Source: Chalara sp. BL73 (taxonomy: Eukaryota; Ascomycota; Leotiomycetes; Helotiales). From it: a stretch of DNA of 64,000 bases. The notes under the pieces were generated by a model. The model was not told the DNA's origin. It saw nothing but the letters and a program-made list of their open reading frames with translations, and did no database searches. The stretch spans positions 310,001-374,000 of the forward strand of contig CAKJVC010000017.1 of assembly GCA_918026815.1 (NCBI GenBank), read 5' to 3'. Below, piece after piece: positions 15,399 through 37,993 of this stretch (its first letter is position 1; every line of letters begins with the position of its first letter). The position numbers were made by a program, and so were the translations under genes.

Positions 15399-18300
15399 AT
15401 GGAGTACTGGAATCCACCCTTGAATCTCTGCGCCGATGACTCCTTCGGTCCGTTGGTCAAGGACTCGTGCCCCCGAGGCACTGATTTGACCTTACTCTTC
15501 GAAGAGGCCGCTTTGTGCCTGGGGCCTGGAATTTTCATGGTTGGTTTTGCATTTACGAGAATGTTTATGGCGAGAGCGGTGCACTGGTGGCCCCAAAGGA
15601 AAGCCACCACATTCAGCTACTGGATAAAGCTGGTAGGCCCATAAAAGTTTTGTCCAAATCACAAATACTGATACCTCCATTAGGTGATATACTTTTTCCA
15701 TCTTATTCACGTAACCCTTCTCGCAGTCCTTCACAATCGAGCACAGGCTATTGCGACAACATCGCAACCGTGTGCCCGAACGAGCGTCTCCTTTCTAGCT
15801 GATTCTACCTCGGTATTTGCGGCGCTGTTTTTAATTCTCAACACATGCCAGGAAGAATCGACAACATCGTGGGCAACGTCCCCAAGACCAATCACAACAT
15901 ACCTGATGATTGGCCTTATAAGTGACCTGCTTCGGGCACGCACGTTCAGCTCAGCTTGTTCAGCGGACAAGTCGTTAGGCCCAGGATATCTGATCCTTGG
16001 GCTGCTCAAGCTGACGGCCATGGTGCTTGAACAGTTTCGAAAGTCACATAATCTGTCGAATTGTGTGGAAGATGATTCTGGAGTAATATCAAGACTATTT
16101 TTCGGGTGGCTTTACACTATGATTCGAAAAGGCTATAGAACACGTCTGCAGATCAAAGATCTGCCAGTTACAAAATATAGTATACGAATCAGAAGTCGTC
16201 AAGGAATCCAGGACACTATCCTCGAGCGCTCCTGGTCATCCTCGCCCTACTCAACATCCCGGTTTGCTCTTCTCCGAAACATATTCAATTCTTTTAGTTC
16301 GACAGTCGTTATAACTGTAATCTTACGTCTTTTACTCCTGATCGTGTCTTTGGCACAACCCATAATTATTCGATATACTCTTAAATTCGTTGAGAACTCA
16401 CAAAATAGGCACGGAACCTTCTTGATTTTGGGTGTGATACTTGTATACTGCGGAGCAGCAGTTTTATCTGGTGCTTACTGGCATTCCATAAACAGTGCTG
16501 TTACTCGATTGCGAGGCGTTTTGTTCGCCGCTATTTATAGGCGAGCTTTGTTATCTGAGAAAAACGAGGAAACTGACGCCAATGGAGCCGTCATTAGCTT
16601 AATGAGTTCAGATGTTGATGCTGTTTTGCAGGGATTTCGGTGGATACATGAAATTTGGGCTACTTTGATCACCACCGCTATTTCATTGTGGATGCTGTAT
16701 GCAGAAGTGGGATTGGCGTAAGTCTCGACAGTAACATCCATTTTCAATTTCTACCATGAATGTCTAATTTTCCCTGGGGCTGACATGTATCTACTTCGTC
16801 CACAGATTCTTGTCTCCGCTTGTATTCACTATTGGTATGCAATATCCTCCACTAGTCAGACCAGAATCTCTCTTTTGCTAATGCGATTCTTCATTTTTAA
16901 GGTGTAACTATGATTTCATCATATCTATCTAGGTATCTCAGATCCCTCCAACAAGAATGGCTTCAAAGTACAGCTGAAAGAGTGGAGTATACCCTCTACG
17001 CACTTCGGAACATGTTGGGAATCAAAATGTCTGGGACGTCTGATAGGATATCGGATGTAGTCTTGAACTATCGACATGTGGAGGTTGAGAGGAGCAAGTG
17101 AGTGTAGCATGCCTAACATAATCCGAAGAGTTGAAGCTCTTTCATACTTAGCCACGGTGATATAACCAAGCTGATCGTTGCGTTAGACAATTTCGGAAGA
17201 TGCTGAGTCTTCTATTAACGCTTGGTATGAGGCCTTTCTCAATGACACGTTTTAATACTATTGAACGGCTTACGGTTCTATAACTTTTTAGCCAACGTAT
17301 CCACGCTAGGTGTCACCCTTGCTACCCTAGGTACTTTCGCAGTGATGTCGAGATACACGGGTGAAGAACTCAGCTCAACTAAGATGTTCACGGCCTTGGC
17401 AATTCTACAGCTGCCTATGAGCGCGTTGCAGACTCTCATCTCCTCAGCCCCGCTCATGGCAGGAGCTATTGCATCCTTACAGAGAATTCAAGAGTATTTA
17501 GCCCAAGAAGGTTCTCGAAACGTAGGGCCCAATACCTTAATATTAAGTGATATACTGGGAACAAAAACCCTCGAAAAATCTCTGAAAGAAATGACAGGAG
17601 TTGTTCAGACAGTTTTCAGTATCGAAAATGGGACAATCGGATGGGCATCCACTAGGCCACTCCTGAAAAATGTTTCATTTCAAGTTCTACCATCAGAAAT
17701 TTGTTTCATTCTCGGACAGTAAGCAATCTTCAAGTCGATTCAGAATATCTCTTTATTGAGACTATCGTATTAGCCTTCCAGATCTCGTATTTTCTGACTT
17801 GCTTGCGAAACAGAGCTGGCTCTGGAAAATCAACTCTACTGGAAATTATCTCAGGCGGAACGCTGACTCTCAAGTTTGTGATTTCAATCTCAAGGGGCTT
17901 CGCTCATGCAGCATATTGCGAACAAAGTCCTTGGCTCCCTAACGAAACGATTCAAAATGTCATCATCGGGGCCGAGAGATTCGAAAGCGCCTGGTTTGCT
18001 GATGTGATATCCCTGTGCTGCCTCACCAAGGATATCGCGGATCTCGAGAAAGGAATCGATACATTTGTAGGAACTGATGGGACTGGTCTGAGTGGGGGAC
18101 AGAAGAAGCGTATCGTAAGCGGATTTTTCCCACCAAGGAAATATACTGAGAAATACAGGCTTTAGCACGAGCTATCTACTCGCGTGACAAAACGTTTATA
18201 CTAGATGATCCACTCAGCAGCCTTGACGCCAACAGCGAGAATTCCCTTATTGAGAACCTTTTAGGTCCGAGAGGATATTTTAGATCTATAGGTGCTACTG

Positions 18301-21158
18301 TTATTCTTGCGACAAGCATTGGTACGTCAAGTATCAACTTCCCACACTTTTCTTTAGGGACATTACTTACCCCATGCTAATTTTTAGCCAAACATCTTCA
18401 TTATGCCGACCGCGTCTATATGATACAGGGAGGGCTGGTTAATGAACATTGCGCCTATGAAGGTTTGGCAGCTGGTAGTAACGACAATAAATTTTATTCA
18501 GAGGTGCATGATCAGGGCAATACGTCAATCATAGAGGAAGAGGACAACAATGGAGCGGTAGACGACACTGTTCAAGGCCATATCAACGGAATATTAGATA
18601 CAATGCAAAAGGGTCCGCAGCCTAAGTAAGTCATCTCTCCACATTTATTGGGTGCAGCACGCTTACAAACTGCTTTGAAGAGCTTCTATGGTGGAATATA
18701 AACTCTACGTATCCTCCATCGGGAGGAAGAATTTTGTCATTTTTATACTCTTGTCTGCTTCAATTGCCGCAGCTTCTCTGGCTCGAAGTATGTACCTCCA
18801 TATTATTTGCCACGCCCCTCTTATAAAATACTTGGCTTGACTCTGCTGGTCAATTTCCAAGACCTTCGACTAATTGAATTTGTGACTAAGGTTTGGAGTT
18901 GAAGAGAATCTCTCAATACTATTCCCATGATGCCTATAACCATCTTGGGGTTTATATTAGCCTCGTAGCAACGACTTTGATGTTTATTTTGTGGTGGAAT
19001 TGGTAAATTATCCACAATTATATGGCAGCCAACTGTGGCATATTCAATGCCCATCAATTTCCCGCTAACTCTTCGACCTCGTACACTGTAGGCATTTTTA
19101 TATTTACGGAGTAGGAACTTCAAGCACGCATCTTCACAAGATCCAGTGGGACGCGCTTATAGAGTATGTTCACTCTAGGTTGAGTTCTAGTTCGGTAACT
19201 GATAGTCGACTTATTCAGTTCACCGATGTCTTTTTTCACTACAACAGGGCAAGGGGAGATCATGAACAGTTTTACCCAAGATCTGAGATATGTCGACAAA
19301 GATCTCCCGACTGCTCTTTCATCCGCGAGTTTAGGTCAGTTGAGCCTATATCTGCGCGCGAGAATCCCAAAATCTTGACGAAGGATGATGCTAATGTTCC
19401 AGTGTTGGCACAAACAGCTATCTTCCTAGTAATAGTGAATACCCTGATTGCGGTAATGGCAACGAAATTCACAGCATTCGCAGCCCCATTCCTTGCGATA
19501 GCTTTCTGGCTAGTGTGCCGCACCTACCTCCGAATCTCCTTTCAGATCCGACTCCTCGACCTCGACTCCGCCTCTCCAGTTTTCAACCATGCTATCGAGA
19601 CCATGCGTGGAATTCGCACTATTCATTCGTTTGGCTGGGTGGACCATTTTTATACCAAGTTTTTGGGTATCTTGGATAACAGCCAAAGACCGTATTATTC
19701 AATGTTTGCAATCCAACAGTTGCTCCAGGTTGTTCTAGATTTATTTGTGGCAATCGTTGCAGTTATCACATGTCTGGCTGCCATCGCTTCGCGAAGTTCG
19801 ATGGACACAGGGATGTTGGGTCTTACCCTTACGAGTCTGGTATGTGGTAAATTTCTCTGTCTGTCATTTATCCTCTTTTCTTGCCGATCTTCTTATTGAT
19901 TTCCTTTATTTCCATCCTGTACTAGCCTTGAGTCGATCTAACACGGTATACCTCCATAGATGACCCTAGGAGGCAGCATGAAGTTATTTGTCCGTTCGTG
20001 GACAGATCTCGAAACTTCAATCGGTGCGATTGGGCGTATCAACTCATTCGTGACTAAGTCGAAGTCAGAACATGATCTTGATGGCTGTCAACATCAGGGA
20101 TATAATTACCACTCCTCACCAGATACTTTACAACATTGGCCAAATGATGGATCTGTTGCCTTCGAAAATTTCACAGCAGCTTTTGGGTATGTCTCGAGAC
20201 ATGTTTATTCAGGATGATAGCCTAGTCAACTTGATTTCCCTTTTAATTGCACTATCTATACTCTTTAATACAGAGAATATATTTTCTCGCATCCTGTAGC
20301 AGATCCCGGAGAGGAAAATTACTAATATATTCGTTCCCAACAGCATAGGTAAACCGCCTGTAATCCGCAACATCAACTTGAAGATATATCACGGGGAGCG
20401 AGTCGCCATTTGTGGACGAAGTGGAAGGTAAGCTCCTTCGTTCCGTTTAACCTTTGTAATATTGCCATATCGAAAATTCAAGTAACTGATCTCTCATTCC
20501 CAGCGGCAAAACCTCTTTGGTCTCCTCACTCTTCAGCCTCACCAGCACCATATCCGGGGAGGTTCTCATCAGCGACCTACCCATATCCAACCTTTGCGTC
20601 CAAAAACTGCGTGAAAGCATTGCCGGCCTCCCGCAAGATGCGTTTTTCCTTCCCGGCAGTGTACGTGATAATTTCAGAATTTACCATGACCGCGACAGCC
20701 GCAGCGTCTCCTCACAGGTGAACAATGCAGAGGCGGAAGATCGGTTAACAAAGTCAATGGTGGGTTGTCTTAGCGATCTTGGAATTTATCATAAAATAAT
20801 AGCAGCGGGCGGCCTCGATTGCACCACCATCTCTCTGACGACGCTTCTCTCGCATGGCGAGAAACAACTTTTCAATCTCGCACGGTTGAGCATTACCTCT
20901 TCGCCAATTGTGGTGATGGATGAAGCGGCAAGTTCCATTGATGACGAAACGGAGAGGTTGGCGAGGATATTCATGAGGAAGAGGCTTGTGGGAAAGACGA
21001 TCATCGGGGTCGTCCATCGGTTGGGGAGTTTGGTGGAAGAGGATTGGGATCGGTATGTGCTTATGGATGGGGGAAGGATAACTGAGACGGGTCATATGAG
21101 AGAGTCAGGGAGAGGAGAGAAGTTTGCAGAGTTCATGACAGGCGGTGGCGGAACTTAA
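15399..21158 (+). CDS. ABC-C (MRP-type) full transporter with TMD0
   Basis: Seventeen exons, all in phase: 15399-15632, 15684-16717, 16806-16834, 16902-17097, 17187-17224, 17292-17718, 17814-18114, 18159-18321, 18388-18625, 18681-18787, 18891-19002, 19092-19163, 19219-19334, 19403-19839, 19960-20186, 20344-20427, 20504-21158 (1489 residues, usual for the family). The start is set by the fungal TMD0 opening with CADDSFGP and TDLTLLFEE. NBD1: Walker A GQAGSGKST, signature LSGGQKKR, Walker B TFILDDP. NBD2: Walker A GRSGSGKTS, signature LSHGEKQ, Walker B VVMDEAASS, switch His in VVHRL. Between them is the second membrane domain with PMSFFTTTGQGEIMNSF. In NBD1 the usual switch His (ATHS) reads ATSI. 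Membrane exporter of conjugates or peptides. In this setting probably product efflux or self-resistance (inference). Confidence 0.93.
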
Positions 21159-22870
21159 GGTTTTGGACATGTTGTAGGTAAGTGTTGGGATCTGCTATCA
21201 GCTTTTTAGAAGACCTTAAGAGATACTGTGATGACCATACAGGGATGGCATCTAGATATTGCAAATAAAGATTTTGCATTGAAATTTGATGAAAGTTCAG
21301 ATTTCAGGTGCACTCAGATAGGTTAATGACTTACTGTCAGTAATCGGCTTGCGTAAGTAGGTCATGGGGCATGACGCTAGAGCAGTCTCTTACCTTAATA
21401 TCACGGTGGAGAACCATAGAATATGATATCCGTATCTCCCTCAATTGAACTCGTAGCTATCACTGTGATACCCTCGCAGATCCTCCATTGATCCTCTTGC
21501 AGGACATGTGATGCGGTCACGTGACGGCTACATCCACTCTTTTGTTTGCTAAACGCGAAATTCTGTATGAATACATCATCATCTTATTACTTGCATTGAT
21601 TGATTTTCTACTATTTGTTGTGTCATCGCTAGGCCCCTTGGTTCTTCTAATAAATCGTAGATGCATACGTAACGGTTCGATCGGAGACGCTGCATTTGTC
21701 GTTTTACCTCCTTGTCATAGCTAAGTCGTTCGTAATTAAACCTTTACATTCCCTTGATGAATTTCAGTCTGAGGGACGGCTACTCTGACACCTCCGCCTT
21801 CCCGTACATCCAAATACTTGTCGTTTCCAAGCCACATTTCTTCAGATTGGGTTGCCTCAGGCTACCAGGTCCTGAACAGGAGTCCTAGCGCAGCACACTA
21901 CCGCGGATCGATGCTAACAATATTGTAGAGCACATACCGGATTTATGCGGGTTTCCGGAAAACAAGTTTATCTGACGGTCCGCGGGTGATTCTAAATCCG
22001 GTCCGACGTGCCCGCTGCCTGAACTGAGCACCAGCAATCTGTGAAGGGGCTTCTCACCTTGTGAAGAATGTGCGGCGCTGCAGCCAGGGATAACGACGTC
22101 TGATACTAAGGGAAATAAGAGGAAAATCCAGGTATTATCGTCCATGGAAATGAGGAGAGAAATTTCACAGTAAAAGACGACAAGAAATTTTTACAGAACG
22201 GGGTGTAACTTTGCTCCGCGCTTCATTGTAGTTTCAAGATGGGGTCGACCTGTTCATCTTAAAGCTGGATGCAAATCAGTAATGTGACTTGGCTAAGGCA
22301 GTTGATCTGGACAGATTTGGAAGTTGGGTTATGTCCAAATTAGACATAAATTAGAAGGATAGAGAGAAAACAGTACCTGCGGTTATAACAGTCGACTTGA
22401 AGCCTTATTCCTGCGTAAATGAATTTTGTGCTAATGTGGCCTCCGAGGTATTAGGTTCCGGAACCTTGATGAAACCAAGGCCCGTAGTGATTAGAAATAC
22501 TTTGTCCCAAACCATTACAGCAACAGTGAGTTGAAATGCCTGTCTCCTTGCGAGGTTACAGGCCGCTCAAGCACATCTATTCATGTCTCACTTGTCCAGT
22601 TTGCAATCTGACTTCCCTATGACTTGATGGTGGGCATGCTCTGACACCTGCGGTATTGGTTCCTGCTAAGTTAGACTCCCTGGAGCGTAATCTCAATACG
22701 AGAATCTCCCACATAATTTCTAAACTTAGAATTGTGAATTGAGTTACTAGAAGCTAGAAGCTCATTATAGAAAACGAGCATACTAAGACAACCCGTTTTC
22801 GATAAAAGGATATCATCCTTCCAATTTCCTCACCTGAGCCATACTCAAGGATATCGCTCTAGCAAATATT
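21159..22870. other. Intergenic, about 1.7 kb, upstream of the large NRPS
   Basis: Contains the 3' flank of the ABC transporter and the promoter of the rightward NRPS. A 67-codon hydrophobic frame at 21521-21724 starts only with GTG and has no splice support, so it is not called. No RNA gene or mobile element recognised. Confidence 0.4.
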
Positions 22871-25800
22871 ATGATTGCGGCTAGACAGGTCGCAAAAATG
22901 AGTTCCAGATCAACGACAAACCCCAGTTCCCTCGAAGAGTCTGATTCTGTGTCGAATTCTGAGAGCCAGACCTCCAGTTCGATGATACCATTGACTCCAG
23001 AATGCCCACCGACGAACGAGGAAAACCACGCAAATACTAGAATACTGCCCACTAACCTAACCTCCTTCACTGCCACTTCCACTAGTCCCCTCTCAGCTTT
23101 ACAGACGGGGATTTTTGCAACCTCGATCTCTCAGCCTGGAACATGGATTGGATCACATGTCTTCCCACTCCCCCCCTCCATTGATCTCGCTCGTTTTAAA
23201 TCAGCATGGACGACCGTGGTTCAAAGGAACGAGATGTTACGATCCCGGATCATGTGGGAGGAGCCTGGATTAGGTGCTGGGACAGGTGGGATGTGCATGC
23301 TTACACTCAACGAAGAGGAGATACTTTGGGAAGAACGAGTTATGGAAGAAGATGATGCACTGGAAATTGTTACAGGAGAGTTGAGGTGGCGCAACATGGG
23401 ATTCGGAGAAAAGTTGAGCGTGTATACGATTTTGCAAGTGCGGGATGAGACCGCATACACCCACGAGGCGGAAGAACAAATCACGGGAATGATGGACAGC
23501 CCCGGTGTTGATCCTGCCAGAAGACTATACTTCATTTGGACGATGCACCATGCAATATACGACAATTCACATTTATTCATCCTCGAAGATGTTCGCCGTC
23601 TGTACAACAAAGGCATCGCCGGCGACAGTACCCTGCCAACACGCTCATCCTTTACAGGACATTTCTTAGACAAGAAAATCGCGCAGATTGACTATACAGC
23701 CGCCTCCAAATTTTGGACCCAGGAATTATCCAACTGCCAAGAAATTGCCACATTTCCGTCCCTCTCTAATACGAAATGGCCTCGCCTTTCCGCCCGCGCA
23801 CGCGCATCGAAGCCTCCTTTCCGTTTCCAGCGCCGCAACGGACAATTATAGCTAATGCCACAAATTCCATTCTTATACGCGCTGCGTGGGCGCTCGTGGT
23901 TGCGAAGCATACGGCGACGACGGACGTCGTATTTGGGAGTACGGTTGCGGGTCGATATGATGCGGAGACGAAGGATGTAGTAGGGCCGACATTTGCGACG
24001 GTGCCGGTGAGGGTGAGGCTTGACAATAAAGAAGGAGTAACTTCAAATTTTTTCCCACTTGAGACAGCTAGCTCAGGTCAGTTTGATCGTCAAAGTATAT
24101 CCCAAACCACCAGCCTCAATGTCAAAGACAGGGGGAGAAAGACATTGGCGCAGCATCTTGAAGAACTACAAATCGCAGCAGATAATGCAAGAGAGCATGA
24201 ACAGGTCGGACTACAATTCATTCAAGATCTAAATCTGTCCTCTAAGAGAGCTGCATCTTTTCAGAACTTGCTGGTTGTCCAGCCCAAGAATCATCCATGT
24301 CCAGCTCCTGTTTCCAAAACTTCAACTCATCCACTGCCGTCATACAGAATGTCGATTTCAAATCGCACAACAGATGAACTCGAGCTCATCAAAACCCATT
24401 TGGATCTAACACAAACGTACGGCCTAGTAGTAGAAGTTACGCCATCTTCCTCAGATAACTGGCTTCTCACTGTCAAATACGATGATCGGCTCCTCTCAGC
24501 TACGGAAGTGGAGCGAATCTGTTCTCATTTCTCAAAAGCCATTTGCGAGGTATTCAGGGAGGAAAATAGGGATATGGAGCTCAGGGAGATTGATCTTCTC
24601 ACGGAGATGGATTTGGATGTTATTAAAGAGCTGATTGTTGAGTCCTACCTTGAGGAAAATGTGCCAAACAACGACAAACCGGCTCTTCTCCACCAAGAGT
24701 TCGAAAGAATAGCAAGAATTCATCCAGATTCGGTGGCCATCGACGCCTGGGATATTTCTTTCACGTATGCACAATTGGACGACCAATCCACAAACCTAGC
24801 CCACCATATCTATCGCCACTACCTTGTTCACAGAACTGCTAGTGAGGACCACACGTCCTCAATCATCCCAATTTGTTTCTCGAAATCTGCCTACGCTATT
24901 GTGGCCATGCTTTCAATTCTCAAAACCGGATGTTCATATCTTCCCCTCGACCCCGGATGGCCTAGTGAGAGAATCAAGTCGATTTTAGAAAGCGTGGGTG
25001 GAGGCGAAGGGGAAATGCTGGATCTTGTGCTCTGCGATAACGAGCAAAATACAAGGTTTGAGAAGGAAGGCTTATTGAGTCAGAGCCCGCGGGCGAGGGT
25101 TCTGACCGTCGAAAGGGATCTTCTTCAAAATCTCCAATCATTATATGATAAGGTGGCTTTATCAAGTGACCCAGCCTCACCTGGAGTGTCAGGACCCAAA
25201 AAACCTCTCTCGCGCCTCCCTTTAATCTCCTCTTCCAACCCAGCGTACATTATATTCACATCTGGCTCTACAGGCATCCCAAAAGGCGTTGTAATATCTC
25301 ATAATGCTTGCGTTACAAACTTTCAATCCCGCCTCTCTCTACTCCGATCCTACACCTCGGAAACGAGAGTCCTACAATTCTCTTCATTCGCCTTTGATGT
25401 TTCTGTCTTCGATATCTTCGGTACTCTTGCTGTCGGAGGTTGTATCGCCATCCCCCACGAATTACACCGCATAAATCCCTCTCAGCTTGCGCAATTCATG
25501 ACTGAAAAACGCGTCAATTGGGCTTCTCTTTCTCCTACTTTTGTTGAATTTCTCAATCCGGCAGATGTACCGACCTTAGAGTATTTGATGCTTGGTGGGG
25601 AATTGCTCACTAGGGAAATTATTATGAAGTGGAAAAGCTTCGGACCGGCTAGACAGAATTTTAGACTTGGAAACGAACTCGGTCCTTCCGAGGTTTGTGT
25701 TGCATGTGTGGGAAATTACGATGTTAGCTCTGAAACCGATCCGAGAGATCTAGGAAAGCCTATTGGTGGAAACAAGCTGTTTCTGGTGGACAAGGACAAT

Positions 25801-28800
25801 GGGAGCAAACTAGTGCCGGTAGGGTGCCAAGGAGAACTGGTTGTCTATGGAGAGAGTATTATGAGCGAATATTTTGACGATCTAGAGAGGACCGAAGAGG
25901 TGCTTGTAGATTTACCTGAGGAGTGTTTGGCATGGCTGCCAAAAGCGCAACACAAAAAGGCTTTCCGAACGGGAGATTTATTCTACTTAAACGCCAACGG
26001 CCACTTTATGTATGTCGGGCGTAAAGACCGACAACTTAAACTGAGAGGGTTCAGAATGGAGCCCGAGGAGATCGAAAGACATATGAAGCTTGAGGATGGA
26101 GTCAAAGGCGCAGTTGTGTCATTGGTGACCTTTCTACAGGACCGGGACAGACACGTTGACAATAAGGATAATGCTCAAGAGCTAGTCGCATTTTTTAGCT
26201 TTGAGAATACACCACCATCGTTGACGGAAAATCATGATGTCTCCGAGCTTTCCGCTTCCAAGGCATGTATTATCGACCCTTCAATCAACCAACGGCTTCC
26301 CAGCTTGATTTGGCGGATTAAATCTCGAATTGAATACTCGCTTCCGCGATATATGGCTCCTTCGTTCTATATTCCAATCTCACATATCCCAATAACACGT
26401 TCAGGAAAACAGGATCGAAATCAGCTCACAAGCCTGCTAGAATGTGCTGCCCCACAACTCGTCCAGGAATTACGCGCAGTTTCCAATATCAATCCAAATT
26501 TATTTGGAGGAAGCAACGGCCTTCATATCGTGGACGATAAGACCACCTTGAGTGCAATTGAATATGATATTAAAGTCCTCTGGACAAAAGTCTTGGGATT
26601 CTCTCGAAGTATTGATATCTGGCTTCACTCTAACTTCTTCCATCTCGGGGAAACAGCATCAAAGCCATCCATCTCAGTGCATTGGCTGGCAGTATGGGAT
26701 TGGAAAGCTTAGATGTCGCAAGCATCTACGAATGTCCCACACTACGAGAAATGGCTGCGCTGTGCTCCGTCACCGCAAAAGTGGATCATGCCACTAACAC
26801 GTCATGGGATGATAACGAAGGCAGCAGCCTTGACAAGAGGAGCCCAATTCGAATATTTGGGAGACTTAAGTCCATGAACGAGAACGACACAAGTGACCTA
26901 AGAAAGCAGCGGATTTGTGTCACTCTGGGGATTGATTTAATTGACCTTAAGGACGTTTACCCTTGTACACCACTACAAGAAGGGTTATTAGCAATCTCCA
27001 TCAGACAGCCTGGAACGTATGTTGTAGCTCGAGTATGGCGCCTAGGGCGCCAAATAGATATAAAGGCTTTCAGAGACGCTTGGGAGTTGACGATCGACCA
27101 AAATGAGATCCTGAGGACGAGGATTGTAGAGGACGGTGAAAGATTTTGGCAGGTTGTCGTTGCGTTCAATTGGATGGAGATTACGCGGCAAGTGGTGGAA
27201 GAGAAGGATATAAGAGAGCTGAATCTATCGACAGAGAAAAAGGAGAGTATCCAGAGACTCGGTCATGACGAGAGTAAGGGAAGGCTCTTATTCTTCGAAA
27301 TTCTGAAAGACGAAGTGGCTGAGGAAACGTACTTCAAGTGGACCATGCATCATGCTGTTTATGATGCTTGGGTCCTATCTGTGATCTGGACACAAGTCAA
27401 GAATAACTACCAAATGCTCACAATGCAAAATCCCCGAGCCATACAGCAGCAACGCCGAGACAGCTTTGCCGAATTCGTCAGAGCAACCTACAATTCTGAT
27501 CTTCCTCCATCTAGCAGGGCCTTCTGGAAAACATATCTCTCCACTTCGGAACCATGGCCGACCTTCCCCACCATGCAAAAAGTCAGCAATTCTAATTGTC
27601 AGACAGATACCGTCCTCTCCCGATACTTCGAACGCAATATTAACACTATACCAAGCATAACTAAAGCTTCTCTCATCCGCGCAGCCTGGGCATGGGTACA
27701 GTCCCTCTACCTTGGCGTGGATGACATAATATTTGGCGTAACACTGTCTGGACGATCTGCCCCTGGGGCAAGTAATGTCGTCGGTCCGACAATTACTACT
27801 GTTCCTGTTCGTGTCATTGTCTCTCCAAGAATGCAGATAAAGGAATTCCTGGAAAGAGTGCAGAAAGAGGCGAATGCGATGATGAGACATGAGCACACAG
27901 GTCTCTCTACAATTAGAGCTCTCGGTGATAGTGCTGGATGGGCTTGCGACTTTGGCAACATTCTAGTGGTGCAGGATAATCAGACTCAGATAGGCATTGG
28001 GAGTGATGGGGAATATAAAACTGAGACTTGGGATGGCGTCGAAGTTGTCGGTCAAGATACTGATATCAGTCACTCAATTCCGTTGGTTCTGGAGTGTATG
28101 CTTGAGGATTCTGGGCTGAGGATTAATGCTATTTTCAGCTCCAAATTTTTAGACCCGGGAGAGGTAGAGTTTCTGCTCGCGCATCTCAGTAAAGCCGTTG
28201 AGGTACTTTCAGAGGAAGCAGTATCTCAAGCATACTCGCTGGAGCAAAGATCCTTGGGTGATATTGAATTCTTTTCGAAGATAGACGAAATATTCATTAA
28301 AGACTGTAATCAGGAAGAAAAGCCGTTAGCGGATCGACTCATTCATGAAGCTTTTAGCAATATAGCAACACAATTCGGCACGAAAACTGCTGTCGACGCA
28401 TGGGATATACAATTTACCTATGAGGAACTCAATCGCGGGAGCGACATAGTTGCGAAAAAGCTCATCCAAGATCACCAAGTCGGACCTGGAGTCCTTGTTG
28501 CTATCTCCTTTGAAAAGTCAGGGTGGGCGGTTTTGGCAATGCTATCTATCTGGAAAGCAGGAGGCGGGTTTGTTCCACTTGATCTCAGTCATCCCAAATC
28601 CAGATTAGAGGATATCGTAAGATCAACGCGGGCAAAGACTGTTCTATGCTCAGCTACTCGGACAGAGCAGTTGAAAAGTCTCCTGGCCGGTGCTGTGCTG
28701 GCTCTGAATTGTGAGACACTGAGAGAAATGAATGAATCGACGGATAAGATGGAAGCTAATGTGGGGCTATCTTTATCATCTCCTTCACAAATTGCCACAC

Positions 28801-31212
28801 CTCAGGACATCTGTTACGTGTTATTTACGTCAGGGAGTACTGGTCGTCCCAAAGGAGTAATACTGGAACACGCTTCAGTCCTCACTTCCCTCCTGGGGCA
28901 TGCTGACGGCTTAAGAATTGAACCAAGCTCTCGTGTACTCCAGTTCGCAGCTTATACTTTTGATACATCGATCGGCGAGATCTTCTCTCCTCTTCTTCTT
29001 GGGGCAACGCTTTGCGTCCCCTCCGAACAACAACGACTGAGCTCCCTGACTCAGTTCATCAACGAGAAGTCTGTTGACTGGGTCTGGCTGACTCCAACTG
29101 TTGCGAGTTTTCTTGATCCGCATTCCGTACCAGGAGTAAAGACGCTGCTTATTGGTGGCGAGAAGGCCAGTGTCAAACTGTTTCAAGAATGGGTAGGAAG
29201 AGGGGTCTTCTTAGTATATGGATATGGACCCACAGAGGCATCCATCACTACTACGCTAAATTTCCAAGTTACAGAAGCGACTGACCCGGCGAATATTGGA
29301 ATGCCGATTTGTGCAAGTACCTGGATTGTTGACCCGTGCGAAAACTCTAGACTTTTACCCATAGGCTGCGTAGGGGAACTAGTTGTAAGTGGGCCGATTG
29401 TCGGCCGAGGGTATCTCAATGATGAGCTCAAAACTGCCATGGCATTTGGGGAGGTTCCAGAAGTGTGGGAACGTATTGTTCGCCCTAGAGCGAGAAAGGC
29501 TTCTCATCGAGAGCGACTTTATAGGACTGGGGATCTCGTTCGGCGCGACGTGACAGGGAACATTATCTTCGTTGGGAGGAAAGATGATCAAGTCAAATTC
29601 CGTGGCCAAAGAATTGAGCTGTCGGAAATTACAAATTATATGGATGATATTCTTGGTGATAGGTGCTCTAGCATTGTTGAGAAGATCGAAATAAGGAACG
29701 GGGATACAGACGGAGGAAACGCTGAAGCCGTGCTCGTCGCATTCTTCACACTTCCTGGATCTACACAAGGCAAAGACTGCAGAGACAGCCAGGAAAATGG
29801 AACATTCAATATCTTTCACCATCCATCGTCAATGAATACGCAAATGATAAATAACATCGAGACCCAACTTCAAGCACTCTTACCTCGATATATGATCCCA
29901 TCTCTTTTCGTGCCGCTTAAATATATTCCCGTCACTACAACTGGCAAGATTGACCGCAGCAGGCTGAAAAAAGAACTCTTGCAAATAGTAAAAGATATAG
30001 GTCGTGCAGATTTCATGCCCGAAAGAGATCGTCCAAAAGAACAGCCCCGAAATGAGCTAGAGAAACAGCTTCAGGAGATCTGGTGCTCGATTCTTGCGCT
30101 GCCTGCCGAATTAATTGGTATTCGTGATAGTTTCCTGCGTCTTGGTGGCGATTCACTGAAAGCTATTGCATTGGCCCATGCAGCTCGCAAAGCTGCGCTT
30201 AATATCAGTGTTGCGGATGTCTTTTGCATCCAATCCTCAGTGACATGGCGAGATTTGTGCAGGAATCGAGAGCTGTTATACAATATCATGGCTTTGAAGA
30301 GTTTGAGGTACTAAAGGAAAGAAAGCAATTTGCTGCGTTTAGTATTCTCTCATCAAATGATGATATTGAGGCCATCACTAGTCACGCCTCTGAGCAATGC
30401 GGCATCACCATAGACGATGTTGAGGACATATATCCTTGTACCGCTATGCAAATAGGCATGCTCGTATCGTCCTCTATGATCAATAATGAAGCGATCAGCC
30501 AGAAATCTGACATCTATGTACTGAGAAGAAGAATAGCTTTCGGGTCGGGATCTGCTGCCATGAATTTTTCAGCTGCTTGGGAGGTTATTAGAAGGAGGAC
30601 ACCCATTATGCGCACCCGTATTATTCAGTACAAGTCAAAAATCTATCAAGTTGTTGTGAAACCCCATGCTGCTTCGATACCACATCCACCAGACTCAGCG
30701 ACAGGCTGGTATGGCAGGAGTCTCGCAGACTTAAAGATGGGACCAGATGATGAATGCGAGATTTCTCTCCATCATTCCATATATGATGCAGTTCTCCTTC
30801 CGCGCCTGCTTAAAGATATTCGACAACAGTACATACGATTTAGTTCTAATCACATTATACCTTCGCTGCAATTGCCGAGAATGATTCCGTTTCGAAACTT
30901 CATTAAATATCTGAACAGCTGTGATGAAAAAGTTGCCGCCTCATTCTGGGGCAACTATCTCGCACCAATTGACGGTCGAGTCAACAAGATAACTCATGGT
31001 ATCTTCCCCATTGTGTCACAACCGTCGCTCGATTTTGAGCAACAGCAAACTTATGCTAACGAGATGTCTCGATACTTTACCAGCAAAAAATCACAGGGAA
31101 CAAAAGCTATTTTGGGATCACATTGGCCAATATTATTAATTTGGCCTGGGCCATTGTCATTGCTCGTCATACCGAGTGGAGGAAGCCGCCATTTCAGGGG
31201 TTAAATGTATAG
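22871..31212 (+). CDS. Bimodular NRPS C-A-T-C-A-T with a truncated terminal C domain; frame interrupted four times
   Basis: About 2,780 residues spread over five frame segments. C1 (about 22.97-24.56 kb) has HHAIYDN at 23546-23566. A1 (24.67-26.4 kb) has IFTSGSTG, FDVS, an unusual LGPSE for YGPTE, TGDLF, and SGKQDR. T1 carries the phosphopantetheine Ser near 26655 in a GGNS-like context. C2 (26.9-28.2 kb) has HHAVYDA. A2 (28.35-29.96 kb) has LFTSGSTG, FDTS, YGPTE, TGDLV, TGKIDR. T2 (about 30.05-30.27 kb) has GGDSLKA. C3 starts near 30.4 kb with YPCTAMQ and HHSIYDA but stops after the LAWAIVIARHT block. Frames shift by one missing base near 23793, at the G run 26647-26650, at the T run 30222-30225, and in 31085-31105. 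No intron can explain the second and third. Either sequencing error or gene decay. It likely builds a dipeptide passed to the C-A-T-R enzyme (inference). Starts at 22871 or the next Met (22898). Confidence 0.88.
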
Positions 31213-31587
31213 TAAGCAGAGAGTTCTCCACTCAATATAAGTACTCTTCCCTTTCTGGATAGCATAAACGAATACCTACCATGAAACGATTGAGGGATCG
31301 TATGCTATGTGACTAGACTTGTTGAGTCATCCTGTGGCTTTCTTTCAAGCATTATACAAAGAATATATGGGGATAAATATTGTCGTGAGCCATAAAACCT
31401 ATGAAAGCCTGTTTTCAGGTTTCGTAAGCTTACTGCTTCCTTGACCTTTTGTCTGGTCGGAATTTCAATGATTTAGTAATGCGCAACATTTTTCATATGG
31501 CTCTATTACCTCGGATGGGGAAATAGGGTTGCCTTCATCAGAAATTCATGTTTCGATCAGCATATTAATCTCTTCAAGCATTTAACG
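31213..31587. other. Intergenic between large NRPS and AGPS, 375 bases
   Basis: I searched all frames for the missing half of the last condensation domain (blocks resembling FGxTVSGR or GPTINTVPVR) and found none. Short frames at about 31310-31440 have no recognisable family character. Confidence 0.45.
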
Positions 31588-33482
31588 ATGCTGAATTGTA
31601 TATCCTCATGGCGGGAAACCCCTGCTTCTACTTCTAGCCTTCTAACTTTTCCTACCGCTGCCTATGAGTCGGATACACGAATATTCCCAGAAATAACTGA
31701 GCACATAGAGAGGAAGGCGAAGAGAGTCTAGATGTATGGGGGTTTGTGGACACACACTTTCAAGCGAGTGCCGATGGCGCAGTCGAGGTGACCGGGAATC
31801 GCTATCCACTAAGCGGCCAGAAACTGCCAAATTTACTTCCGTGGATAAGCAATTTGATGGAAGTGGATGTCTCAGCGAAGGTGATATATCCATCCAAATA
31901 TCCGACCCCAATTCCAGAGTCCGTTATCAATGAAGATTTTCTTGCAGAGCTGCAACTCAGGTTTGGGGCGCCACAGGTCAGTCAAGACCCCGCTCAGCGC
32001 CTTCGCCATGGTCACGGCCACTCCCAGAGTGAAATGTATGCTATCAAGCATGCGCAGCTGAGACGCGTGCCAGATATTGTATTATATCCAAAAATGAGGA
32101 GGATGTCATCCATTTAGTCAAAGCAGCAGGAAAACACAATGTATCGATAATTCCATATGGTGGTGGAACTAATGTGAGTGAGGCACTTGAGTGCCCGCAT
32201 GGTGAACTTCGGATGATTGTCTCAGTAGACATGAGGCAGATGAATAGAGTTCTTTGGTATGACCCCGTCAATCGTATGGCAGCTATAGAATCTGGAGCTG
32301 TTGGGAGGCATATCGTCAAGGAATTAGCAAAATATGGATATACAATTGGCCAGTATGTGTTTGCTCATGTGAGATTCTATATGAAGCTGACTTCACTATC
32401 ATAGCGAACCGGACAGTATTGAATTCTCAACGCTGGGAGGATGGATCGCAACCAACGCAAGTGGGATGAAAAAGAACAAGTACGGCAATATCGAAGATAT
32501 AGTTCTGGACATCAATGTCATAACCAGCATAGGAAGGCTGGAACGAACGGCAGCTCTGCCTCGAGAATCGGTTGGCATCGATATGCGCCGCTTATTATTT
32601 GGCTCAGAAGGTAGTCTAGGTATCATAACCTCGGCGGTCATCAAAATATTTCCGATTCCAGAAGTTCAGCAGTATGGTTCAATCTTGTTTCCTAGCTTCG
32701 AAAAAGGTGTGGCCTTCATGTACGAGCTCACACAACGAGGAGGCCAACCAGCAAGCATCCGCCTGGTAGACAATATGCAATTCCAATTTAGTATGGCTCT
32801 CAAGCCTGCTTCAACTGGCGTCAAAGCCGTGATGGGTCGCCTCCAAAAGGAATATGTCACAAGAATCAAAGGATTCGACTCCCAGAAGATGGTAGCATGT
32901 ACACTGGTGCTTGAAGGCCGGGCCGACGAAGTAAAGCACCAAGAGTCTATAATTTATGCTCTGGCCGCCAAACACAAAGGCTTGAAAGCTGGTTCAGAGA
33001 ATGGTGAGAGAGGATATCTTCTCACATATAACATAGCGTATATTCGAGACTTTGGAATTGACCATTATATCATTGCCGAGTCTTTCGAGACATCCGTACC
33101 GTGGAGTCGAACTCTGGAGCTGTGTCAAAGAACGAAAGACCGTGTTTTTAAAGAGCACGCCAAACGCAAATTGCCCGGGAAACCATTTGTTACTTGTCGC
33201 GTAACTCAGGTGTACGAAAGCGGGGTGGCGGTATACTTCTATCTTGCGTTCTTCTTTCAAAACGTTGAGGATCCGTCAGGCACATATGCAGAGATCGAGA
33301 AGGCCGCGAGAGATGAGATTCTGCTCTGTGGTGGTGCTCTGTCCCACCATCATGGCGTAGGAAAGTTGAGAAAAGGTTTCCTCGATCGGATTATGTCGCA
33401 AGAGGCTCTGGAATGGCGGAAGAAGCTGAAGAACAGTGTTGACCCGGGCAATATATTTGGAGCTGGTAACTTTGCAAACTAA
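31588..33482 (+). CDS. Alkyldihydroxyacetonephosphate synthase (alkylglycerone-phosphate synthase, AGPS-like)
   Basis: Flavoenzyme that replaces the acyl group of acyl-DHAP with a fatty alcohol, forming the glycerol ether bond. Colinear with animal AGPS over nearly its full length (about 614 versus about 658 residues). N-terminal part RYPLSGQKLP and VINEDFL. FAD (PCMH) domain with PDIVLYP, YGGGTNVS, HEPDSIEFST, ASGMKKNKYGNIED, GSEGSLGIIT. Cap domain with SIRLVDN, NGERGYLLTY, YIRDFG. The active-site VYFYLAF tyrosine and triple His in LSHHHGVGKLRK are intact. One intron, 32353-32404. The frame changes once in the five-A run 32090-32094 (one base short, certain) and probably again at about 31711-31735, where upstream PEITEHIERKAKRV must join DVWGFVDTHF. 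No PTS2 signal is visible at the inferred N terminus (Met at 31588), and the C terminus is not a PTS1. It follows the NRPS on the same strand and precedes FAR. Higher fungi are generally thought to lack this enzyme. Confidence 0.93.
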
Positions 33483-33791
33483 CTTTGCTCATGTAATATT
33501 GGAATATTTAAACTATATCAAAGGCTGCTACTTAGACAAGAAGCCAGAGTATGCGTTGAGGATATAAAAATACGGCAGAGTCCAAATTAAAGTAGTTGGT
33601 AACCGCAATACATGCCTGAACCAAATTTCGTGTATAGAGGCTCCAGCACTAATCATGGTGGAGATACTCGAAATTATGGAACAACTTGTGGCTTGCCAAA
33701 AAATAGCGTTAAATACTGTAAATTTATTAGCAATTAATTTTAAGAGAACGATGTAACATACCCTAGACACTAGTTCCACTTAGTAATCTAC
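33483..33791. promoter_or_regulatory. Intergenic between AGPS and FAR (FAR promoter), 309 bases
   Basis: Short AT-rich spacer separating two co-directional genes, presumably containing the AGPS terminator and FAR promoter. No open frame with coding character on the plus strand. Confidence 0.45.
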
Positions 33792-35222
33792 ATGTGGGCT
33801 TCCAACTCAGTGCATTCAAGCACAAAAATGTGGTCAAAAAATTCATCTCCATCTGAAATGGATTCAGACAAACCTCCAAGGTCACTTTATGAAACAACAC
33901 ACGAAGATAAGGATCCTAAAGCAGAAACAGTTGAGCGGAAGAATCCGTATACTGGCAAGTCAAGCATCCTCCTTACAGGCGCAACAGGGTTTCTCGGAAA
34001 AGTCGTGCTTGAAGAACTTTTTCGCCGTCGAGATGAACTGGAGTTTGAGAAAGTTTTCATAGTCATCCGCTCCAAACGAGGACACAATGCACGAGGACGC
34101 TTTCTTCGACTAGCAACCTCCCCTTGCTTCTCCTTGTTAGCATCTACGTGGATGGACTCAGTGCAAGTCATTGAAGGTGATCTCACACAAGACATCTGCG
34201 GGATAGAGAAAAAAGTCTATGAGAAGCTCTGCTCAGAACTGACAACTATCATCCACTGCGCTGGGTGTGTGAGATTCGATCTACCTATCAAGGAGGCTGC
34301 ATTGCAAAATGTTGGAGGAACACTTAATATACTTGATCTCGCAAGAAGTTGCAAATATCTTCAGAGGATAGTTGTCACTTCAACCGCATATGTCAGTACG
34401 AAAACGCTAGAGCCAATTTATGAAGAACTGGCACCGCTACCCCTACCAGCCGATCAATTATGTCTGATGATAAAGAGTGAAACGGTGAAAGAGAAGGATA
34501 TCCTACGCCTCACTGGTCACCCAAATACGTACACACTCACGAAGTGTATTGCTGAGCATTTGCTTCTTGAATGTGGAGGAGACGCCCCTATACGTATCGT
34601 CAGACCAAGCATCATCACCGCAAGCAAACAGTACCCGTTTCCAGGCTGGATTGACAGCTATGCTACACTTGCAGGCATCATCGCAGCAATGACTACAGGA
34701 AAGTTGCGTGTGCTTGATAGCAATCCAAAGACTATACTAGATGTCGTTGCAGTAGACGAGGTTGCACGACATTTAATCAATGACGCATTCACTAGCACAA
34801 GAGGAAAGAAAATCCGCTTTTCGGTCGCAACACTAAAGCATGGGCTCGAGCTCGAAAGTGCATCGCAAGAAGCAGTGGAATTCTTTCAAAGCATGCTAGA
34901 CCGTCGCCAAGCCAGAATATGTCGATTTAGGCCCCGTGATCTGAGGTTCCACTGTCAAGACTTCTTATATCATAAGCTAGCACTTAGCATAGCTAGCTTA
35001 TATTTCGGTTTACGGCGGAATAAAAAAATGCGAAGAGAAGTAAAGAATATGGCAAAGACTCTCACACAAATCAACGATATCTTTCCATATTTCGTCCATA
35101 ATAGTTTTGACTTCCGGCCAATAGAGTCACCACTTGATGGCATGGACAAGAAGGAGTTCGTAAGGCTGTTTGTTCAGGGCATCGAAAGACATCTGCTATC
35201 TCAGAAAGGAGCATGCAAATAG
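33792..35222 (+). CDS. Fatty acyl-CoA reductase (alcohol-forming, FAR/male-sterility family)
   Basis: Uninterrupted 476-residue frame. The extended-SDR N-terminal domain (NAD_binding_4) has the nucleotide-binding TGATGFLG at 62-69, GDLTQDICG, IIHCAGCVRFD, VTSTAYV, and the catalytic YTLTK (Tyr 247, Lys 251), followed by VRPSII and FPGWID. The C-terminal Sterile/FAR_C domain covers about residues 370-468 (SIASLYFG, FPYFVHNSFDFR). Unlike the NRPS reductase domains it is a stand-alone protein with its own C-terminal domain, so it should act on free acyl-CoA and make a fatty alcohol using NADPH. It ends right after the FAR_C domain and lacks the C-terminal hydrophobic tail that anchors animal FAR1/FAR2 to peroxisomes. 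It directly follows AGPS, the enzyme that consumes fatty alcohols. The start could also be Met 13 or Met 23. The call is firm; chain length is unknown. Confidence 0.93.
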   Translation: MWASNSVHSSTKMWSKNSSPSEMDSDKPPRSLYETTHEDKDPKAETVERKNPYTGKSSILLTGATGFLGKVVLEELFRRRDELEFEKVFIVIRSKRGHNARGRFLRLATSPCFSLLASTWMDSVQVIEGDLTQDICGIEKKVYEKLCSELTTIIHCAGCVRFDLPIKEAALQNVGGTLNILDLARSCKYLQRIVVTSTAYVSTKTLEPIYEELAPLPLPADQLCLMIKSETVKEKDILRLTGHPNTYTLTKCIAEHLLLECGGDAPIRIVRPSIITASKQYPFPGWIDSYATLAGIIAAMTTGKLRVLDSNPKTILDVVAVDEVARHLINDAFTSTRGKKIRFSVATLKHGLELESASQEAVEFFQSMLDRRQARICRFRPRDLRFHCQDFLYHKLALSIASLYFGLRRNKKMRREVKNMAKTLTQINDIFPYFVHNSFDFRPIESPLDGMDKKEFVRLFVQGIERHLLSQKGACK

Positions 35223-35337
35223 ATCAGGATATCTTGGAGAATGGTCAGATTCAAACTGCAGTCATCTTGATACGCCCTTCCAGCCTTGGTACGATTGCCT
35301 GTAAATATCAGTGTGGGCTTTTGGGTAGAAATTTGGA

Positions 35338-37600
35338 TTAAGGGAAAGATTCACGCACTCTTGTCCAATCAACCTTAAATTCTCCGTCATCTTGGTTATC
35401 GCAGCACTTAGGTTGACCAGATAGACCGGCTAGACGCCACCACTTCTTCGTGACTTTTCTAATGAGTTTGATCTCGCGTTCCCGTTTTTCTGAAGATATT
35501 TTGACTTCCTCTGACTCATCCGTACTTGTATCCTCATCAGACTCATCAAGTGGTTCCTCGGTTTTGGTTACCTCATTTGCCTCTTTTACGTCTCTACTTT
35601 CCGGTTCTCTCCTCTGTTGCAATGGGAAGGCAGTGCTTGCAACCTCGCCCGCGGCTTTTTCGGGTGACCGCGGTTCCACAATTCCTTCTTGCATGGACTT
35701 CTGGACTCCTTTCCAGTGTCTATCTATTGACTTACCCCACCTCTTCCATTGGCCCATGATTTTCAGACTCATGAAGTACTGTCTCAACATCATGCTGATA
35801 AGAATTCCGTTCTCTTCTGAAACTATCTCCTCCGCTTCGCCGCCTTCTGACTTGGCAAGCAGAGAGTCGAAACCGTCTTTGCCTCGGGCCATGTAGCCAC
35901 GTGTGACCAATGTGTATTGCTTCTTTAGATCGAGCGGCGCGTCACCAACCTTGACATATTTTATGCGAGAACTAGGCGGCTTGCTCGGATCAAACTCAAA
36001 CTCAATCCTCGAGACTTGGGGAAATCGGCCTTCAAGGGCCGGATATAGAGAGACAGAATTTTCCAAAGCTTCTAGTAAGGCCTGGCCAGTAACCTTGATC
36101 ACGACGCACGGATCTTCGAATGGAAAGCTTGGAAATATTAGCTAATATCCGAGGAGACAGATCATACTGAAGGGAGCCTACCAATTCATAATATCCTTCA
36201 ATTTCAACAAACCAGGGGGGATATATCTGGTCACCACGTATAGTACCGGCTGCTATTAGACAGCAATCACCTCCGTAATGGCTCCTCATGAGATCGGAAA
36301 CAAAATTTCCCATATTCGATTCTTTGAGCCTCACAGTTGTAAACCGTGCATCCAGTGGAGCCATCGTGTAGCCCAATGGTTTCCCTAATTTCGCTTTCAA
36401 AGATGTAGTAAGTTTCTCCGTGAGGCCTAGAGTCGCTTGATCTTCTGGAATACTCTTAACTATGTCCCGTCTGACTATATGAAAGTCCCATTTCTTGCTG
36501 TTTCCATTTTGGCGCCGAGCTTCTAAATAACTGAGCTGCTTGAAGTCACTCCCAGATCGAAGTACACTATTTAAATTAGCATAGAGTCTCCAATTAAAAT
36601 TCCGAATCTCTGAAACATGCGCCAACGATGCTATAGTTAGAAATCGGTTAAAAGGGGCGAGGCATACTGAGTTCCATTTATAAGGCTGTGCTGGTAGAAA
36701 TGATCATGGCCACCAAGAATAATATCAATCAATCCATCGGGTGTCTTCTCGGCGAGTTTGTTGTCATTTGGTTCTCTTTGATGGGTGACGGCAACAACAA
36801 TTTCGGCTCCTTGAGCTCTTAGATCGGGTATGAGTTCTTTGGCTGTTGCAGAAGCTGACTTATATATCAGGTCAGGTGGCAAAGAGTTGATCGTGTCAAG
36901 CCATTCACGCTCCACAAGGCCAATAACGCCGACTTTGATTCCATTTGACGACGTCAGCATGACTGTCTTCGTAGCGTTTCCTAGGGGCACATCTTTGCCA
37001 AGAGCCGGATCTAAGACGTTTGCAAGAAGCCAGGGGAACTTGCATTGACCTGTGAGATGTCTAAACTGTTTGACACCAAAATCGAGATCATGGTTCTGTT
37101 ATCCATTCATGTTACCAAAAATTCAATTGAAAACTCAGAAGAGTTCCTCATCCCGTCTCTACTTACCCCAACGCAAGCTACATCTGTGCCAATAGTGTTT
37201 AAGATGGGTACCATGTGACTTCCTAAGTGGTGTTTAGAATGTTGGTAATTGAGAGGAAAGGAAACGAAGTCGTTACTACCTTTGGTAACACTGCTCTCCA
37301 GGCTGGGATTGAATGCATCTCCAGAAAAGAATGTCAATAGCTCCGGCTGCCCCTCGAATCGCTCAGCATTTTGATATTCGTTGGTTAGAGTCTTGAACCT
37401 TGCAATCCCTCCTACCGGCTCTGCAGAGGAAGCATCGATGTGATAGACTGCTTCATCAGCTTCAATCGTAATACTCAGGACTATCTAAATGGGTTACCAT
37501 CATTGAAATGAAGCAGACGCAAATCAGGCGGTGAAGACGTATTGCCAGTGGTGTAGGTGATGGATTCGGTTGCTACTGGAGCTTTCTCCTCAATAGCCAT
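35338..37600 (-). CDS. 5'-nucleotidase/UshA-type metallophosphoesterase, one frame change
   Basis: Six exons: 37600-37498, 37450-37280, 37222-37167, 37095-36668, 36566-36182, 36127-35338 (about 643 residues). N-terminal calcineurin-like metallophosphatase domain: LLHFND, FFSGDAF, GNHDLDFG, VTHQRE, GGHDHF. Then the 5_nucleotid_C domain: RSGSDF, SNMGNF, IAAGTIRGD, FPFEDP, VTGQALLEALENS. No signal peptide, so probably intracellular. The tail is acidic low-complexity (near DESDEDTSTDESEE). The frame changes once in exon 5 at the six-G run 36215-36220 (plus strand), where one extra base is present. The flanking blocks read cleanly on both sides. Family members dephosphorylate nucleotides or other phosphate monoesters. 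It converges on FAR with only 115 bases between stops. It may be a border housekeeping gene, or the phosphatase of an ether-glycerol pathway (inference). Confidence 0.88.
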
Positions 37601-37993
37601 GATGAAGCCTGTTCAATAAAGACGGGAAACGATTCTGGCCAATACCTATGAATTGAGACTTTTTGATGAATGATGGCCTAAGAATATATGTTCTCCTTAC
37701 CAAGTATGACAGTAGTGTTTGCACATTCAATTATGTGTGACGAGACAAGGGGCAACGGGGCTGAGGCTGGGCCAAAGAAGTGGGTCACCTAAAGTCCCGC
37801 CAACCAATGATATTCTCGACTTTAACAACAAGGCTCCTACAAAGTTCGCTATGTGCGAAGGAGACGCTTGGAAGAGCTTGGGATTTTCCGGCAGCTACAA
37901 GATATTCGGAGCGATATAACTGAAGGAGGTCTACATTCTTCCGCTTCCCATCATTAAATATACACAAAATTTAGACAGGCACTGTTTGTCCAA
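37601..37993. other. Intergenic, 393 bases
   Basis: Promoter of the leftward 5'-nucleotidase and 3' flank of the leftward SDR. No supported gene. Confidence 0.4.

Follow-up and report, generated by a model that had tools for sequence, protein, structure and literature searches.

A candidate bacterial-type cluster of AGPS, FAR and DegT aminotransferase genes in the fungus Chalara sp. BL73 and a possible route to O-alkyl serinol phosphates

Overview

The window analysed here, meaning the whole stretch of 64,000 nucleotides from the ascomycete Chalara sp. BL73 (lying on contig C14 of the assembly), contains a homologue of AGPS, the alkyl-dihydroxyacetone phosphate (alkyl-DHAP) synthase, followed by a fatty acyl-CoA reductase (FAR). 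An earlier note on this DNA had remarked that such a pair stands in a dikaryotic fungus, from a group in which ether lipids are said to be missing or mostly missing, and this remark holds (PMC13256971, PMC9131029, PMC4207751; here and below these articles are cited for the sections available). Our reading, to which we give an even chance taken as a whole, is that the true partner of AGPS and FAR is a DegT-family aminotransferase and not the non-ribosomal peptide synthetase (NRPS) that precedes them in the window, and that this three-gene cluster of bacterial ancestry (DegT divergent from AGPS, FAR downstream of AGPS) would yield O-alkyl serinol phosphate without involvement of the NRPS. The genes, the conserved active-site residues, the linkage and the ancestry are documented below, and the enzymatic steps are predicted from them. 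The broader proposal, that some Leotiomycetes and a few bacteria transaminate alkyl-DHAP instead of reducing it, and so form O-alkyl serinol phosphates by an ether-linked route to sphingoid-like bases that does not need serine palmitoyltransferase, with AGPS-FAR and DegT genes that the fungi obtained from bacteria, is tentative and held a little below even chance.

The AGPS and FAR genes

The AGPS gene occupies window positions 31588-33482 (+ strand) and comprises exon 1 (31588..32352, +; start MLNCISS), an intron of 52 nt (32353..32404, +; GTATGT...TAG) and exon 2 (32405..33482, +), the latter encoding the FAD-oxidase_C domain, the Arg and Tyr positions and the SHHHGVGK block. The spliced product, GHEPDSIEFSTLGGW, aligns with guinea-pig AGPS. 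The FAR gene starts 309 bases downstream on the same strand (33792..35222, +), as previously described. The earlier note had also taken AGPS for a near full-length homologue with an intact flavin adenine dinucleotide (FAD) site and LSHHHGVGK motif; its domains and residues were recovered, while a single open frame was not. With respect to the second copy of the gene, on contig C63, the window copy shifts frame twice in exon 1, through differences at 31706-31716 and 32089 within a stretch that is 99.76% identical, whereas the C63 copy is open and encodes a single protein of 613 aa with one 52-nt intron.

AGPS was assigned to the VAO-type FAD proteins by its Pfam domains (FAD_binding_4 and FAD-oxidase_C), and sequence alignment identified the LSHHHGVGK block together with the Arg, Tyr and His positions. 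Its best match in the PDB was 4bby (E 3e-176, residues 29-610), which we take to be the guinea-pig peroxisomal AGPS, and AGPS structures were far ahead of other matches. Residues T309, R419, R515, Y578 and H615-617 (guinea-pig numbering), key positions of the guinea-pig enzyme, are conserved in the C63 AGPS and in 11/11 aligned fungal homologues. A comparison of 13 active-site-region positions gave the same residue at 12 of them for guinea pig, the C63 AGPS and all 11 fungal proteins; the exception is position 469, occupied by Leu in the guinea-pig enzyme, by Gly in that of Dictyostelium and by Val in the fungal ones. The window gene is thus considered an AGPS homologue, for which alkyl-DHAP synthase activity is predicted by homology. 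Identity as a D-lactate or glycolate oxidase was considered and rejected, exon 2 scoring 109 bits on the GlcD model for a cut-off of 568 and the best PDB match being AGPS.

FAR is a stand-alone protein of 476 aa, the same in both copies, with a NAD_binding_4 domain and the motifs GATGFLG and YTLTK, which satisfy GxxGFLG and YxxxK. Above cut-off only NAD_binding_4 and related dehydrogenase families were matched, with no fused acyltransferase domain. The FAR_C domain (PF03015) announced by the earlier note was unmatched even at E<=10, so that fatty alcohol formation by FAR is presumed.

Junction with the NRPS

Comparison of the window with its assembly (58.66 Mb, 199 contigs) showed that AGPS exon 2 is present twice, both at 100%. 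Window positions 31183-37934 correspond to C63:1-6743 at 99.76% identity and positions 20906-31185 to C165:1-10270 at 99.62%; both duplicates start at a contig end and break off at the same window position. At this junction (31183..31185) the left side (C165:1-10270) and the right side (C63:6743-1) overlap by 3 bases, AAG. The NRPS (22838..31185, +; condensation, adenylation and one carrier domain across four open frames) is cut there. In C165 its frame continues beyond the junction point, for 2839 residues in total. Past AGPS, C63 carries a DegT-family aminotransferase gene (L007:7171-8424, the locus excerpt around it), oriented divergently to AGPS, then housekeeping-like genes (assigned by eye), and no NRPS among the listed open frames beyond AGPS in its first 30 kb.

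The copies differ mostly by small indels, such as those that shift the frame in the window AGPS exon 1; the C165 copy also has frame breaks, and both versions therefore hold errors. Separately, positions 24433-24493 (C165:3518-3578) show clustered substitutions between copies that are otherwise 99.6% identical, a pattern distinct from the isolated indels seen in other places. Contig C78 (13 kb) is a further redundant case, its first 10 kb matching a portion of C33 at 99.58%, and redundancy is therefore not confined to the junction site. The join at 31183-31185 is probably an assembly chimera, the alternative being a derived rearrangement. As each side of the junction continues separately elsewhere, the NRPS was rejected as a member of the ether-lipid cluster and is judged to lie outside it; the link proposed earlier between the NRPS and the AGPS-FAR pair is doubtful.

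That NRPS, AGPS and FAR nevertheless form one lipopeptide cluster, in a genuine window order, appears very improbable. C14 is contiguous across 31185, and this order would fit a true derived rearrangement carried by part of the population or by a second nucleus. Against it, both sides of the junction recur on other contigs exactly up to that point, the NRPS truncated in the window runs on in C165, the assembly holds another redundant contig (C78 in C33), and FAR is paired with DegT in Chlorociboria (by locus tags) and in Bisporella (by equal-sized contigs).

Ancestry of AGPS and FAR

The earlier note had set the pair beside the animal pathway, a comparison that proved misleading. Against four named bacterial proteins AGPS shows 60-63% identity, compared with 47% for the guinea-pig and 34% for the Dictyostelium protein. 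A quick tree was built on 63 rows picked from the 120 best matches plus references, in which 12 homologues and the C63 AGPS form one clade (SH-aLRT 100). This clade, referred to below as the fungal clade, sits among bacterial rows (support of successive nodes 84-94) and apart from the sole animal row, a long branch joining a cyanobacterial row and flagged as unsure in its placement. On these grounds (identity and position among bacterial rows) an animal-type origin of AGPS was rejected. In the FAR tree, a single 52-row clade (support 96) contains all named fungi and lies amid bacterial rows, many of which are FAR-acyltransferase fusions. Judged by their sequences, AGPS and FAR are of bacterial type.

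A simple motif search for the peroxisomal targeting signals PTS1 and PTS2 found none in the C63 AGPS, FAR and DegT or in the 11 fungal AGPS homologues, which suggests that the pathway is probably located outside the peroxisome matrix.

Linkage to a DegT-family aminotransferase in fungi

Protein searches with AGPS, DegT and FAR returned 5782, 1521 and 1023 matches, of which the best 120 were listed in each case.

The C63 DegT has one match only in the host genome. In Chlorociboria aeruginascens the genes for DegT (g6732), AGPS (g6733) and FAR (g6734) bear consecutive locus tags. The FAR and DegT of C63 are respectively 96% and 95% identical to proteins of Bisporella sp. PMI_857, both listed on a contig of size 785754; by these values the host looks close to Bisporella (Helotiales). 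Among fungal-clade AGPS on contigs larger than 7 kb, 6/6 (including Chlorociboria) match a DegT-bearing contig in size, for a chance expectation of about 0.06 shared sizes above 7 kb over the whole AGPS and DegT lists; 3 of these 6 contigs are also equal in size to a FAR-bearing contig. The remaining six fungal-clade AGPS lie on contigs of at most 4.2 kb. Two further size pairs, 2789 (fungal AGPS P0006, bacterial-type DegT P0207) and 2847 (P0074, P0307), were judged due to chance and not counted, and the pairs 8557 (P0018, P0153) and 7260 (P0062, P0353) fall outside the fungal clade.

The DegT subfamily

The Pfam match of the C63 DegT covers only residues 43-211 of 424, and the lysine of the pyridoxal phosphate (PLP) motif is invariant in 63/63 sequences. 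The AlphaFold model of the Bisporella DegT (predicted local distance difference test 93.9) has the DegT fold. Compared with DegT aminotransferases (50 structures listed), it gave template modelling (TM) scores of 0.60-0.69 on query length, with identities of 14-20% and root-mean-square deviations of at least 6 Å. The most hydrophobic stretch falls within a set of additional helices, at about 212-257.

From 301 bacterial relatives of DegT, the best 80 loci were kept and the DegT open reading frame (ORF) could be placed in 77. Gene orders include PlsC, HAD phosphatase, AGPS, DegT (L067) and DegT, AGPS, FAR (AMP-binding and Sterile domains), HAD phosphatase (L092). A HAD phosphohydrolase is also present in the Myxococcus xanthus elb operon (PMC9131029), and is therefore not specific to DegT loci. 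In six loci (L040, L054, L058, L064, L070 and L075) a single open frame joins DegT to a relative of FAD enzymes, and in six others (L025, in two pieces, L028, L037, L063, L072 and L089) such a relative adjoins DegT. Four of the six adjacent FAD enzymes match FAD_binding_4 (Pfam), and the fused parts were assigned by their phmmer similarity to the adjacent ones. The fusions are acidobacterial open frames of 882-919 aa.

Pfam scanning of 120 of the 130 neighbour ORFs (10 were left out, mostly long) gave FAD_binding_4 as the commonest family (8/120, overlapping the AGPS and FAD-enzyme loci named above), and a plsY-type G3P_acyltransf was found in 4/120. Protein P0164 (619 aa) is a fusion of an acyltransferase (PF01553, PlsC) and DegT (PF01041). 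The fungal DegT clade has a bacterial sister group (support 93) to which the AGPS-linked L067 and the plsY-linked L041 and L050 belong. A plsY-type gene lies directly 5' of DegT in the cyanobacterial loci L041, L050, L056 and L068 (Pseudanabaena, Phormidium). Source names given to members of the subfamily include perosamine synthetase and dideoxygalactose transaminase.

AGPS and FAR in bacterial loci

The genomes of one bacterial phylum (377, which we take to be Myxococcota) were searched with the AGPS homologue P0016, and 43 matched at E<=1e-120; 40 of the 43 loci were analysed over up to 8 kb on each side, several being shortened by contig ends. FAR lies immediately 3' of AGPS on the same strand in 26/40, the gap between the ends of the two matches ranging from -118 to 297 bases. 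Among the 14 other loci, 1 is cut by a contig end, 3 match part of a FAR-acyltransferase query and 10 neither. The same order, AGPS then FAR, is described for MXAN_1676-1675-1674 of M. xanthus, where MXAN_1676 was shown to act in alkyl ether lipid synthesis (PMC9131029).

Proposed pathway and alternatives

In the proposed pathway, FAR would convert a fatty acyl-CoA to a fatty alcohol and a host acyltransferase would make acyl-DHAP. By homology, AGPS would then exchange the acyl chain for the fatty alcohol to give 1-O-alkyl-DHAP. The host genome encodes a GPAT_C protein on C53 (E 3.9e-95), next to which an Acyltransferase domain was also matched and for which DHAP is a possible substrate; since yeast GPATs acylate both glycerol-3-phosphate and DHAP (PMC4207751), acyl-DHAP should be available. 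In Dictyostelium and animals the ketone of alkyl-DHAP is reduced (PMC13256971, PMC9131029). Here, linkage and chemistry suggest that the DegT PLP enzyme may instead aminate it, in place of the usual reduction. The product would be 2-amino-1-O-alkyl-glycerol-3-phosphate (O-alkyl serinol phosphate), an amino ether lipid resembling a sphingoid base, which may subsequently be dephosphorylated or N-acylated. As DegT is the conserved additional, ketone-aminating enzyme beside AGPS, amination of alkyl-DHAP would be its simplest use. The NRPS partnership proposed earlier is not borne out, the repeated partner being DegT. A search for plasmanylethanolamine desaturase (PF10520) gave no match in the host or in any control genome, and the negative therefore carries no weight.

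Several observations weigh against alkyl-DHAP amination by a DegT partner. Equal contig size is not proof of one contig, and linkage is direct only in Chlorociboria, through its locus tags. The Bisporella AGPS is not among the best 120 of 5782 matches. Stipitochalara, Cudoniella, Hymenoscyphus and Amylocarpus bear FAR and have no entry of the same name among the listed AGPS and DegT matches; FAR is also listed from Penicillium, Aspergillus, Fusarium, Exophiala and others, and fungi with a listed FAR outside Leotiomycetes are likewise absent among the listed AGPS and DegT matches. AGPS is the immediate neighbour of DegT in 3/80 bacterial loci (L019, L067 and L092). Of 40 DegT-bearing genomes tested (from the 80 loci), 8 have an AGPS-like match at E<=1e-30, 5 of these matches being other than those of the three loci and weaker, so that most tested bacterial DegT act without a recognisable AGPS. 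Conversely, no DegT was matched (E<=1e-6) in the 40 bacterial AGPS loci. DegT therefore has AGPS-free roles and AGPS-FAR functions without DegT. The nearest solved relatives of DegT, finally, are mostly sugar aminotransferases.

The lack of a DegT match in the 40 bacterial AGPS loci and the sugar-aminotransferase relatives of DegT speak for a first alternative, in which the pathway is an ordinary one: a host short-chain dehydrogenase/reductase would reduce alkyl-DHAP to alkyl-glycerol-3-phosphate and DegT would supply something else, for example a head-group amino sugar. The resemblance of AGPS-FAR to the described M. xanthus arrangement also speaks for it. On the other hand, no glycosyltransferase or nucleotide-sugar family appeared in the 25 families examined of 159 among the 120 bacterial DegT neighbours, and members of the DegT subfamily occur fused to, or next to, FAD enzymes and lipid acyltransferases; this alternative is considered rather unlikely.

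In a second alternative, FAR would stop at a fatty aldehyde and release it for conversion by DegT into a fatty amine, with AGPS acting separately. Aldehyde release is possible with FAR_C unrecognised, and FAR and DegT occur on contigs of equal size 8 times, in 5 of which no AGPS is listed. The position of FAR behind AGPS in 26 bacterial loci, none with DegT, and the AGPS-DegT pairs without a FAR match in L019 (a short contig end) and L067 argue in the opposite direction and make this alternative improbable.

Other genes of the window

A 5'-nucleotidase-like phosphatase gene (35338..37484, -; extent determined by eye) lies tail to tail with FAR. It has a 5_nucleotid_C match at 35341-36141 (Pfam), and no Pfam family was matched in its segment 36640-37098. 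ABC-transporter-like open frames (15684-21158, +; by eye) separate the NRPS from a glutamine synthetase-like gene (13442-14479) and could form part of the NRPS locus running on into C165. At 573-5495 (-) the window encodes an intact NRPS-like protein of 1640 aa with condensation, adenylation, carrier and thioester-reductase-type (NAD_binding_4) domains.

Comparison with known systems

Fungi are described as being without, or largely without, ether lipids or plasmalogens in the available sections of PMC13256971 and PMC4207751, and those of PMC9131029 state their absence "save some ... reports". Searches of the open-licence literature, a scope that leaves aside most subscription papers and all bioRxiv preprints, turned up no account of a fungal AGPS-FAR-aminotransferase cluster among the entries listed. 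The complete-looking alkyl-DHAP module of bacterial type makes the absence of ether lipids directly testable in a fungus. If DegT does act on alkyl-DHAP, the cluster would offer a second way of building sphingoid-like amino lipids. A candidate function is also given to a subfamily whose members bear names such as perosamine synthetase or dideoxygalactose transaminase.

The fungal genes resemble MXAN_1676-1675-1674 of M. xanthus, compared by description only, in that AGPS is followed by a FAR1-like protein and the fungal AGPS falls among bacterial sequences. They differ in that the M. xanthus FAR is fused to a GNPAT-like acyltransferase and its third gene is of the epimerase/dehydratase family (PMC9131029), whereas the fungus has a stand-alone FAR, DegT as third gene and an intron in AGPS. 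In our searches, a Myxococcota AGPS and a Myxococcota FAR-acyltransferase protein were found on equal-sized contigs (7260). With the FAR1/GNPAT/AGPS pathway of animals the fungus shares the AGPS family and its key residues; the animal pathway is peroxisomal, whereas the fungal AGPS, FAR and DegT have no PTS1 or PTS2 motif and AGPS is only 47% identical to that of guinea pig. In Dictyostelium, as in the fungal proposal, FAR (as FARAT) and AGPS cooperate for alkyl-DHAP; there, however, FAR is fused to an acyltransferase and peroxisomal (PMC7375469, PMC13256971), and AGPS is 34% identical. The fungal DegT has its fold and PLP-motif lysine in common with the sugar aminotransferases (DegT, ArnB, perosamine synthase) and is set apart from them by 14-20% identity, a partial Pfam match, the extra helices and linkage to AGPS and FAD enzymes. 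The serinolipids of tunicates (didemniserinolipids), which we take to be serinol alkyl ethers, are serinol-based like the proposed product; if the proposed pathway is correct, the fungal cluster could serve as a model for these and similar serinol ether lipids.

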